Below, in pieces: positions 2,872 through 35,180 of a stretch of DNA of 64,000 nucleotides. Location of the stretch: positions 1-64,000 of the forward strand of contig NZ_BOPF01000010.1 in assembly GCF_016863615.1 (NCBI RefSeq). Reading direction: 5' to 3'. Position 1 is the stretch's first letter. Each line of letters opens with the position of its first letter. The position numbers and the translations under genes are program-made. Below the pieces are notes generated by a model. The model searched no databases. It was not told the origin of the DNA and saw only the letters and a program-made list of their open reading frames with translations. Origin of the DNA: Virgisporangium aliadipatigenens (lineage in GTDB: Bacteria > Actinomycetota > Actinomycetes > Mycobacteriales > Micromonosporaceae).

Positions 2872-3531
2872 CGCCGGGCGTTCGCGCACCCGTGGCGGGG
2901 CGGTGGACAGGACGGCCAGCGCCGCGGCGTAGCCCGGGTCGGGGGCCAGGTCGCGGAGCTGTGCCGCCAGGCCGGGGCGGTCCGGGTAGGCGATGAGCGC
3001 CGGCTCCGTGTCGGGCGCGCTGACGTGCAGGCGGTGCAGGCCGAGGGTGATGCCGTCGCCGGTGGCCTTCACCGTGGCCTCCTTACGGGTCCAGTAGCGG
3101 AAGAACCCGGCGAGGTCGGTGGCGCGTTCGGACGGGTGCAGCACGGTCGGGGCCAGTGCCGCCACGTCCACGTCGTGGACCTGTTCGACGTCGACGCCGA
3201 CCGGTCCCGCGGCGGTCAGCGCCACCGCGATCCGGTCGCCGGAGTGCGAGACCGAGGCGTGCAGGCCGGTGCCGGGCAGCGTCGGCTTGCCGTGCGGCAG
3301 CGGGCAGGTGGGGCAGTGGCGTTCGATCCGGACGGCGGTCGGTGCCGTGCCGGTCGCGGCCCCGGCCGCCAGGCGAAGGACCGCCGTCCCGAGCAGTCGC
3401 CGGACCCGGTCGGCGGGGCGGCGCAGCTGCTCGACCCGGGCCTTCTCGGCCGGGTCGAGCAGCGTCGCGAGCGCGTCGTGGGGGGCCTCCGGGGTGGCCC
3501 ACCAGACGGTGCAGGTATCGGCGTCGATCAC
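2857..3531 (-). CDS. 4'-phosphopantetheinyl transferase (Sfp type)
   Basis: The enzyme would transfer phosphopantetheine from CoA to a serine of carrier proteins. Family motifs are present in order: the CoA-binding region around HASVSHSGDRIAVA (residues 91-104), the metal-binding GVDVE (112-116), and W147-x-x-K150-E151-A152 within FFRYWTRKEATVKATG. Its 224 residues fit the Sfp class. The start lies 9 bases after the dctA stop, so the two are probably co-transcribed. No carrier protein, NRPS or PKS gene lies in the window, so its client is elsewhere. Confidence 0.92.
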   Translation of the reverse strand: MIDADTCTVWWATPEAPHDALATLLDPAEKARVEQLRRPADRVRRLLGTAVLRLAAGAATGTAPTAVRIERHCPTCPLPHGKPTLPGTGLHASVSHSGDRIAVALTAAGPVGVDVEQVHDVDVAALAPTVLHPSERATDLAGFFRYWTRKEATVKATGDGITLGLHRLHVSAPDTEPALIAYPDRPGLAAQLRDLAPDPGYAAALAVLSTAPPRVRERPASDLL

Positions 3532-34509: not shown

Positions 34510-34539
34510 TTGCGCGGGGTCGCGCCCGGCTCTTACCGT
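34510..34539 (+). promoter_or_regulatory. Candidate promoter of the leader/tRNA operon
   Basis: TTGCGC (34510-34515) and TACCGT (34534-34539) are separated by 18 bases and fit the loose actinobacterial housekeeping consensus (TTGnnn / TAnnnT). A start near 34546 would give a leader of about 38 bases before the small ORF. It is a hand prediction only. Confidence 0.4.
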
Positions 34540-34583
34540 AGTCGTCGTACCACCCGGGCAGGCAAACCAAACGGGAGCATCTC

Positions 34584-34628
34584 ATGTGGCAGCACCACGG
34601 CTCATATGCCGGCAGGCGAAGCGACTAG
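34584..34628 (+). CDS. 14-residue leader peptide MWQHHGSYAGRRSD
   Basis: ATG 34584 is preceded by GGGAG at a 6-base spacing, an excellent ribosome site, and the ORF ends in TAG at 34626-34628. The peptide has Trp, two consecutive His, Ser and Tyr near its start, encoded TGG CAC CAC ... TCA TAT. TCA and TAT are rare codons in this GC-rich genome. The four tRNA genes downstream are Trp, Ser, His and Tyr. Its expected role is to stall ribosomes when these tRNAs are uncharged or missing, not to act as a peptide. It is too short for standard gene finders and the assignment is inference. Confidence 0.55.
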   Translation: MWQHHGSYAGRRSD

Positions 34629-34651
34629 CGCGTCCACAAGCGCTCCCGTCG

Positions 34652-34684
34652 CCCCGCCTCCGCACCCGTCGGACGCGGGGTTTT
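34652..34684 (+). terminator. Intrinsic terminator upstream of tRNA-Trp
   Basis: CCCCGCCTCCG (34652-34662) pairs with CGGACGCGGGG (34670-34680) with one mismatch in 11, a 7-base loop, and TTTTCT directly after. It lies between the leader ORF and the first tRNA, where only a conditional terminator makes sense. Confidence 0.75.
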
Positions 34685-34713
34685 CTGTGTCTCCCTACGT
34701 TTTCTGTAGCCCT

Positions 34714-34785
34714 ATGGGTGTAGCTCAACGGAAGAGCGTCGGTCTCCAAAACCGGAAGGTGGGGGTTCGAATCCCTCCGCCCGTG
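34714..34785 (+). tRNA. tRNA-Trp (anticodon CCA)
   Basis: A complete 72-base cloverleaf folds: acceptor ATGGGTG/CGCCCGT (with two G-T pairs), D stem GCTC/GAGC, anticodon loop CTCCAAA with CCA, T arm GGGGG-TTCGAAT-CCCTC and discriminator G. CCA is not encoded. The wobble-rich acceptor differs from usual actinobacterial tRNA-Trp, which suggests a divergent second copy. It is the first tRNA after the attenuator. Confidence 0.9.
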
Positions 34786-34879
34786 CGTATCCAAAACTCC
34801 ACAGTGGATGGTTAGAAATGATCGGTGCCCGTCGCTGGCGCCGATCGCCCCGGCGCCGACACCTTACGGCGCCGTGGAG

Positions 34880-34915
34880 CCCGGGGCCCGCCGGTGTGAA
34901 CGGCGGGGCCCCGGG
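34880..34915 (+). other. Strong hairpin between tRNA-Trp and tRNA-Ser
   Basis: CCCGGGGCCCGCCG and CGGCGGGGCCCCGGG form a long G/C stem (one bulged base) around GTGTGAA, 7 bases before tRNA-Ser. With no T-run, it may be a processing or RNA-stability element in the polycistronic tRNA precursor. The 137-base spacer also holds a TCCACAGTGGA palindrome (34798-34808). Confidence 0.45.
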
Positions 34916-34922
34916 CACTCTC

Positions 34923-35008
34923 GGAGAGGCCAGCCGATGTGGCGCCGGCACCCGTCTCGAAAACGGTCTGGGGTGACTCCCGTGCGGGTTCGACTCCCGC
35001 TCTCTCCG
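34923..35008 (+). tRNA. tRNA-Ser (anticodon CGA), divergent
   Basis: This class II tRNA of 86 bases has acceptor GGAGAGG/TCTCTCC, D stem GCCG/CGGC, anticodon loop CTCGAAA with CGA, a long variable arm (GGGG TGA CTCC), T arm GCGGG/CCCGC and discriminator G. The junction before the D stem reads CCA, so the near-universal U8 is absent, and the first anticodon-stem pair is a mismatch. It reads as intact but atypical. Confidence 0.85.
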
Positions 35009-35021
35009 CTTGCATCACCGT

Positions 35022-35092
35022 GGTGTCTGTAGCTCAGTGGCAGAGCGCCGGATTGTGGTTCCGGTGACGAGGGTTCGATTCCCCCAGACGCC
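35022..35092 (+). tRNA. tRNA-His (anticodon GTG), divergent
   Basis: The acceptor GTGTCTG/CAGACGC, the extra 5' G at 35022 opposite C at 35092 (the G-1:C73 identity pair of tRNA-His), D stem GCTC/GAGC and anticodon loop TTGTGGT are all present. By hand the T stem is one base short, with three G-C pairs and an A-C mismatch. It is either a divergent functional gene or one starting to decay. Confidence 0.78.
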
Positions 35093-35097
35093 CTCCC

Positions 35098-35180
35098 GCG
35101 GGTGCGCCGACGTAGGAGAGTCGGGCCTGGCTGTAACCCAGGTGCCTTGCGCTCAGGGGGTTCGAATCCCTCCACCCGCA
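35098..35180 (+). tRNA. tRNA-Tyr (anticodon GTA), divergent
   Basis: The 83-base class II tRNA has acceptor GCGGGTG/CACCCGC, a 5-pair D stem CCGAC/GTCGG, anticodon stem CCTGG/CCAGG with loop CTGTAAC, a variable arm, T arm GGGGG-TTCGAAT-CCCTC and discriminator A. Position 8 is C instead of U. Only 5 bases separate it from tRNA-His. Its 3' end directly abuts the stop codon of the convergent membrane protein gene. Confidence 0.88.

Follow-up and report, generated by a model that had tools for sequence, protein, structure and literature searches.

Leader peptides that list the amino acids of the tRNA arrays behind them: a probable ribosome-mediated attenuator in Virgisporangium aliadipatigenens and related bacteria

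Results

Anatomy of the tRNA locus

The window analyzed in this study, a stretch of 64,000 nucleotides from Virgisporangium aliadipatigenens (NZ_BOPF01000010.1, positions 1 to 64,000), contains a small tRNA cluster preceded by a short ORF (Table 1). ARAGORN called four tRNAs in total at this locus (34714-35180), exactly the Trp(CCA), Ser(CGA), His(GTG) and Tyr(GTA) genes that the first-pass annotation had named, and the Trp and His genes alone passed the cut-off of the Rfam tRNA model. Separate, divergent copies of all four are found elsewhere in the genome, indicating that the window tRNAs are redundant. The 14-codon ORF and its ribosome-binding site were found where they had been placed earlier, and the peptide holds Trp, His, Ser and Tyr, the amino acids of the four tRNAs. 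A random 13-residue peptide with the pooled composition of the leaders described below would contain all four with P 0.009, and the comparative evidence for a match between leader and array is far stronger than this value. We agree with the earlier reading that the two Ser codons of the leader, TCA and AGC, are not read by the array's Ser(CGA). The promoter-like pair proposed upstream stood in part: a strict sigma-70 consensus scan of the locus returned no promoter, but the pair fits the looser pattern TTG-N16..19-TANNNT, which recurs before 69 of 92 leaders (mean 1.2 and maximum 5 in single-base shuffles).

Table 1. Features of the leader and tRNA genes in the window
Feature	Position	Strand	Basis
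Promoter-like pair TTGCGC / 18 nt / TACCGT	34510-34539 (34510-34515, 34534-34539)	+	fits TTG-N16..19-TANNNT
Ribosome-binding site GGGAG, 6 nt upstream of ATG	34573-34577	+	sequence
Leader ORF MWQHHGSYAGRRSD, 14 codons and stop, with Trp, His, Ser and Tyr inside	34584-34628	+	sequence, comparative matching
Predicted antiterminator 5' arm, in the last codons of the leader	34614-34625	+	fold of 34605-34664, z -4.66
Predicted antiterminator 3' arm, overlapping the terminator 5' arm	34648-34659	+	folding
Predicted intrinsic terminator, stem 34651-34681, T run to 34684; exclusive with the antiterminator	34651-34684	+	consensus scan, folding
tRNA-Trp(CCA), divergent array type	34714-34786	+	ARAGORN, Rfam
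tRNA-Ser(CGA)	34923-35009	+	ARAGORN
tRNA-His(GTG)	35022-35093	+	ARAGORN, Rfam
tRNA-Tyr(GTA)	35098-35180	+	ARAGORN

The nearest neighbors recognized by Pfam lie on the opposite strand and encode a SpoIIE-type phosphatase before the locus and a bestrophin-like protein after it. Among ten neighboring ORFs searched against Pfam, none was named as a toxin or defense gene, and four had no Pfam match. Control by a T-box riboswitch was considered and set aside, as the window has no T-box match at the Rfam gathering score. Two G+C segments between tRNA-Trp and tRNA-Ser (34880-34915), CCCGGGGCCCGCCG / CGGCGGGGCCCCGGG, form an almost perfect inverted repeat that has no T run; it may act as a second terminator or mark a site of processing.

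Energy calculations gave two mutually exclusive folds of the leader region. Folded alone, 34605-34664 formed the antiterminator suggested in the first pass, in which 34614-34618 pairs with 34655-34659 and 34621-34625 with 34648-34652 (z -4.66; 0 of 200 shuffles equally good). A fold that starts just past the stop codon, as if the ribosome had freed the downstream part, gave the terminator instead: 34629-34690 formed the stem 34651-34681 followed by TTTT at 34681-34684, with -25.2 kcal/mol and z -1.9 for the entire stretch (11 of 200 shuffles equally good). Folds that start at 34575 or 34600 and run to 34690 returned to the antiterminator (z -1.7 and -1.8, equaled by 11 and 13 of 200 shuffles, respectively), with the caveat that a 5-pair hairpin at 34665-34679, which is the consensus scan's own terminator match, persists in these antiterminated folds. 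On these energies, the antiterminator is predicted to exclude the terminator, as originally proposed, and a ribosome that has reached the stop codon would overlap it.

The array family

The locus search covered the window's genome and those of 100 relatives (101 genomes in all), and a search with tRNA-Trp covered 354 genomes of the family, 117 of which had a match. One hundred regions were fetched, comprising 93 of the 123 tRNA-Trp matches outside the window and 7 regions from the locus search; the 30 tRNA-Trp matches left out came mostly from one genus (g4), and 2 of them lie within fetched regions. In the fetched regions and the window, ARAGORN called arrays of 1 to 33 tRNAs with a divergent tRNA-Trp first. 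When 20 regions picked from the tRNA-Trp matches of further searches were considered, 14 held a lone tRNA-Trp and 6 held arrays. Twelve non-actinobacterial matches of a pattern scan were rejected: each was either a single tRNA-Trp gene or an ordinary cluster without an array led by tRNA-Trp. The array family is most likely one of Micromonosporaceae and their relatives. The window, with 4 tRNAs, falls short of a tRNA array unit, which is described as 20 or more tRNA genes (PMC5966550); set beside homologous loci with up to 33 tRNAs, it appears to be a reduced relative rather than an array unit.

A short leader ORF with a ribosome site precedes the leading tRNA-Trp in 98 of the 101 loci, window included. 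Leader starts were curated by eye for 94 of these, and four more (L130, L140, L096 and L166) were added after a further look; the latter are counted within the 98 and stand outside the curated statistics. The remaining three loci were excluded from the counts. L182 and L188 have no leader ORF and are both lone tRNA-Trp genes, judged to be of the canonical type. At L184 a leader ORF is present and covers the eight amino acids of the other tRNAs, and the first tRNA was not called as Trp. Apart from a changed anticodon loop (CTGAAAGA), this leading tRNA (965-1039) looks like the tRNA-Trp of the arrays, and the leader and a terminator-like hairpin remain.

The 94 curated leaders are 14-65 residues long (median 43) and start with ATG in 85 cases and GTG in 9. 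After two repeated pairs were dropped, 92 distinct leader/array pairs were available for comparison. A permissive scan, run without a shuffled control, placed a terminator-like hairpin after the leader in 80 of these loci and found none in 12.

Leaders list the amino acids of their arrays

We compared the amino acids of the array tRNAs with those of the leader peptides. Across all 98 loci, the leaders hold codons for 776 of 801 array amino acids, and the list is complete in 75 loci. For the 92 distinct pairs the count is 760 of 784 (97%), against a mean of 82% and a maximum of 87% for swapped leaders (2000 trials), and a mean of 82% and a maximum of 85% for random peptides of the same composition (500 trials). 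The other two reading frames of the leaders covered 67% and 71%. When the ORF was chosen automatically, 754 of 798 amino acids were covered (swapped mean 80%, maximum 84%), and the association survived a row-centring that removes the size of array and leader (z 12.8, 93 pairs). Homologous loci had been named in the first-pass annotation as the place to check the reading: there the leader ORF is kept, and its codons are not random but track array content.

All 136 amino acids of the 40 arrays with at most six tRNAs are covered, where 109.7 were expected. The leaders of three Trp and Asp arrays (L112, L113 and L115) contain TDDTDD, an array of Trp, Gln and Tyr (L185) follows the leader MRRWQYPYLVLTGRRS, and one of Trp, Lys and Met (L169) follows MMWQAAMKLCSPGVSWRNG; at L179, the identical nine amino acids are missing from both array and leader. 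The six arrays of at least 28 tRNAs (L143, L145, L153, L158, L183 and L190) have leaders of 40-43 residues with 19-20 different amino acids, and random composition gives such diversity with P 0.0004 to 0.011 in each case. Among the 11 arrays with at least 16 amino acids, leader diversity was not above chance in L117 (24 tRNAs) and L125 (23 tRNAs), which agrees with the absence of C, F, N and Y from their arrays.

The reverse match is weaker. In 1056 cases an amino acid has no array tRNA; it is also missing from the leader in 455 of them (43%, against 32% for swapped leaders) and present in the leader in 601. This indicates that the rule is containment of the array's amino acids in the leader rather than equality. 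L120 (Trp alone) and L121 (Trp and Asp) share the same leader peptide, as if tRNA genes were lost before codons.

A comparison over 32 isoacceptors showed that when an isoacceptor is in the array, its codon is commoner in the leader (Mantel-Haenszel odds ratio 2.1, p 2.5e-5, a p-value that, like the others of this comparison, ignores the relatedness of loci). In the boxes that share no codons, TTG or TTA occurred in 12 of the 19 leaders that precede an array with a Leu TTR tRNA versus 11 of the 73 others; the corresponding counts were 7/12 versus 18/80 for Arg AGR, 40/40 versus 36/52 for Ser AGY, and 25/25 versus 56/67 for Ser TCN. Some isoacceptors went in the opposite direction, for example Val(CAC), with 8 of 17 leaders with the tRNA and 14 of 20 without it. 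Judging from these codon counts, isoacceptors likewise tend to match, beyond the amino acids.

Another array in the window's genome, G000:C25, comprises 18 tRNAs and lacks Trp, His, Tyr, Leu, Val, Asp and Asn. Its leader, MSAKQTTFGPMNEIRRPACQPAGFRMSEAREAGMGRWAG, covers 13 of 13 array amino acids (P 0.011) and is without D, H, L, V and Y, and thus without the common residues Leu and Val.

These results bear on an alternative in which the leader would be a general translation-stress switch: any slow ribosome, whether caused by an antibiotic, starvation or ribosome damage, would activate the array, and the codon content would be unselected. Several long leaders do hold nearly all amino acids, so that almost any stall would register, and the tRNA operon of the cyanobacterium Anabaena is reportedly activated by antibiotics that target translation (PMC10272220). 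However, such a switch leaves unexplained that leader content tracks array content, with complete coverage in the small arrays, that isoacceptors match as well, and that the G000:C25 leader dispenses with Leu and Val. We consider it improbable.

The match might also be inherited, related arrays keeping related leaders while shared composition makes the overlap look specific. Many leaders are indeed homologous, the 92 pairs falling into 39 clusters; nevertheless, this explanation is very unlikely. When one locus per leader cluster was taken, the mean z was 8.6, a value reached by 0 of 500 permutations in each of 20 draws, and when pairs were permuted within leader clusters, 0 of 5000 permutations reached the observed association. 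Ten more arrays, which did not belong to the first set and of which nine lie in other genomes, together had 129 of 141 amino acids covered versus 106.4 expected.

Arrays outside the first set

Taken singly, L222 (17/17) and L223 (18/18, with the second-ranked start in the same frame taken as its leader), which like the Curtobacterium and Kineosporia arrays represent other families, each had a chance P of 0.0035. L218 and L219 each covered 16 of 18 (P 0.059 and 0.051, respectively) and L221 covered 15 of 18 (P 0.20), none of the three reaching significance by itself; L220, with 14 of 19 (P 0.77), was no better than random. In Kineosporia babensis, Trp and Leu tRNAs stand behind the leader MNITTLLSLRLTSWRLPWPELPS, and both amino acids are covered, which is likewise not significant by itself (P 0.59).

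Two plasmid arrays of Curtobacterium (L192 and L195) have leaders of 43 and 44 residues that contain all 20 amino acids, with P 0.03 and 0.05 for the coverage of the arrays. A strong hairpin (z -6.2) follows each leader, with a T-rich tail in L192 and no T run in L195, and a relative of the leader is present on a third Curtobacterium plasmid. The L192 leader (NZ_CP126274.1, 3747-3878 of the region) is annotated as a hypothetical protein, WP_258377915.1; this database entry, with its full set of 20 amino acids, is most likely the leader peptide of an attenuator.

Longer ORFs, alike in sequence, lie upstream of arrays on Mycobacterium/Mycolicibacterium plasmids (L193 3885-4169, 94 residues; L194 3929-4210, 93 residues). 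Both hold all 20 amino acids, as a random peptide of that length does with P 0.22 and 0.23, so their content is explained by chance at 93-94 residues (P 0.22-0.27), though they may be list-like leaders of a longer type. In two phages, one mycobacteriophage and one Streptomyces phage, no leader was seen by eye.

Conservation of the antiterminator

The peptide ends of many leaders are GRWR-, GRRR- or ERWSG-like; the RNA that encodes them is GG(U/C)GGCG-like and base-pairs with the terminator's 5' arm, which is GCCGCC-like. This pairing at the end of the leader is kept in six alignable clusters of at least four members and in a mixed set of 14; two further leader clusters of at least four had too few terminators to align. 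The reading frame over the antiterminator RNA varies between clusters, as judged by eye, indicating that the RNA is what is kept. Covariation of the antiterminator, which the first-pass annotation had named as a check, fared less well than the pairing itself: a compensatory change was seen in just one pair in each of four clusters, and the pairs are mostly invariant, so that covariation support is weak.

The last nine codons paired with the terminator arm at a mean of -13.5 kcal/mol, compared with -11.9 kcal/mol for shuffled sequences, and did better in 53 of 79 loci, while the preceding nine codons paired no better than shuffled ones (24 of 76 loci). Native and swapped antiterminator partners scarcely differ (z -1.7). 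These comparisons amount to consistency, not covariation.

That the product of the ORF is a small peptide with a function of its own, apart from attenuation, is scarcely credible. One of the leaders does carry a protein annotation (WP_258377915.1), but the sequences differ widely between clusters, and what recurs among them is the amino-acid list, the antiterminator arm encoded at the end, and the terminator.

Discussion

We conclude from the sequence comparisons that a ribosome-mediated transcription attenuator very probably controls this supernumerary tRNA array and that it senses the tRNAs it can resupply. Feedback on tRNA supply, the role first suggested for the window locus, is the reading that fits best, and the matching of leader and array supports it.

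In the mechanism that we propose, RNA polymerase would transcribe the leader and a ribosome would follow along the short ORF. If all codons were read at speed, the ribosome would reach the stop codon and cover the last codons, which form the 5' arm of the antiterminator, and the terminator would form ahead of the first tRNA gene. If a tRNA needed for the leader were scarce, because it was uncharged, depleted or cut, the ribosome would stall upstream and the antiterminator would form; the array would then be transcribed until its tRNAs, which are presumed to be functional, relieved the stall. Because the codon repertoire of the leader is kept matched to the array, the switch would sense what the array can supply, and scarcity of a listed tRNA would be its natural trigger. 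In the largest arrays, nearly all 20 amino acids would be sensed in about 41 codons. Since any stall ahead of the last codons would leave the arm free, one terminator could serve some 40 sensed codons.

A broader reading, to which we lean with less confidence, treats such self-listing leaders as a class that works like a checksum: a frame that would have to be read to its end for the operon to shut off, with at least one codon for each tRNA species that can be supplied and up to 20 amino acids in all. Such leaders would serve a homeostatic translation reserve, sensing the loss of any listed tRNA, for example where phages, rivals or the defenses of the cell itself deploy enzymes that cut tRNAs, and replacing just that repertoire.

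The leaders of the trp, his, ilv and thr operons are well known for ribosome-mediated transcription attenuation of amino-acid operons. The loci described here resemble them in having a predicted promoter, a short ORF with codons related to the product, and a predicted antiterminator exclusive with an intrinsic terminator. They differ in that the tRNA itself would be regulated, in that up to 20 amino acids are listed rather than one to three, and in that the codons in most array leaders are spread out instead of standing in runs. Actinobacterial leader ORFs that sense translation via premature termination are also known from Streptomyces trpS1 and from the upstream ORF attenuators of the whiB7 type; those control a synthetase or a regulator, whereas the array leaders would control tRNA genes.

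Another supernumerary tRNA operon, the long trn operon of Anabaena sp. PCC 7120, is described as normally repressed and as activated by translational stress (PMC10272220). In contrast to the arrays studied here, it is controlled by a repressor protein, the ribbon-helix-helix protein TrcR, and the words 'leader', 'attenuat' and 'terminator' do not occur in the available text of that paper (PMC10272220). The tRNA array units of mycobacteria, also found on plasmids and in phages, are described as redundant, spread by mobile elements and often containing an HNH endonuclease gene (PMC5966550). Our arrays resemble them in being redundant with other tRNA genes; the sections devoted to those units do not deal with regulation (PMC5966550), and the two mycobacterial plasmid arrays that we analyzed differ in their longer upstream ORF, whose content is within chance. 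A literature search, with most subscription papers and preprints outside its scope, returned no account of leader peptides, attenuation or regulation in tRNA arrays. We rate the parts as known kinds and their combination as new, namely a leader that inventories the tRNAs it controls within ribosome-mediated attenuation.

The role of the supernumerary tRNA arrays of mycobacteria is described as not clearly understood (PMC5966550). A self-listing leader indicates what should switch an array on and allows a direct, codon-by-codon test of the trigger. It would be a natural sensor for the depletion of many tRNAs at once, usable as a reporter, and with it the range of ribosome-mediated attenuation would grow from a few amino acids to almost all of them. 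About a hundred related bacterial tRNA clusters share this design.

Additional observations

Similar stretches (CTCCACAGTGGATGG, GAACTTCATAGTGGATGG and GAACTTCACAGTGGTGGC) were noticed by eye near array tRNAs in the window's genome, at 34787-34820 of the window and immediately before tRNA-Pro at L031, and on the mycobacterial plasmids, immediately before the first tRNA at L193 and L194. Elsewhere in the window, 54481-54587 matches the c-di-GMP-II-GAG riboswitch exactly at the gathering score (40 bits); this segment overlaps long ORFs, and the match may be due to chance. ARAGORN also called a tRNA-Pyl(CTA) in the same genome (L213, G000:C2 572146-572218), which is probably a false call.

Some arrays contain more than tRNA genes. 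The interval between tRNA-Ile and tRNA-Arg in the 33-tRNA array L153 holds a full bacterial class A RNase P RNA on the minus strand (2949-3313, 254 bits). The gap between Gly and Gln tRNAs in arrays was considered as a possible structured RNA and rejected, since it has no Rfam match near the gathering score and contains an ORF whose end is HNH-like. Array gaps of 500-600 nt hold an ORF in L107 (1168-1605), with similar ones in L105, L131, L138, L170, L174 and L183. The end of this ORF (CAYCGG...DHVLPRSRGG...) is one that we take to be HNH-like. An HNH-like ORF within the array is likewise reported for mycobacterial arrays (PMC5966550).
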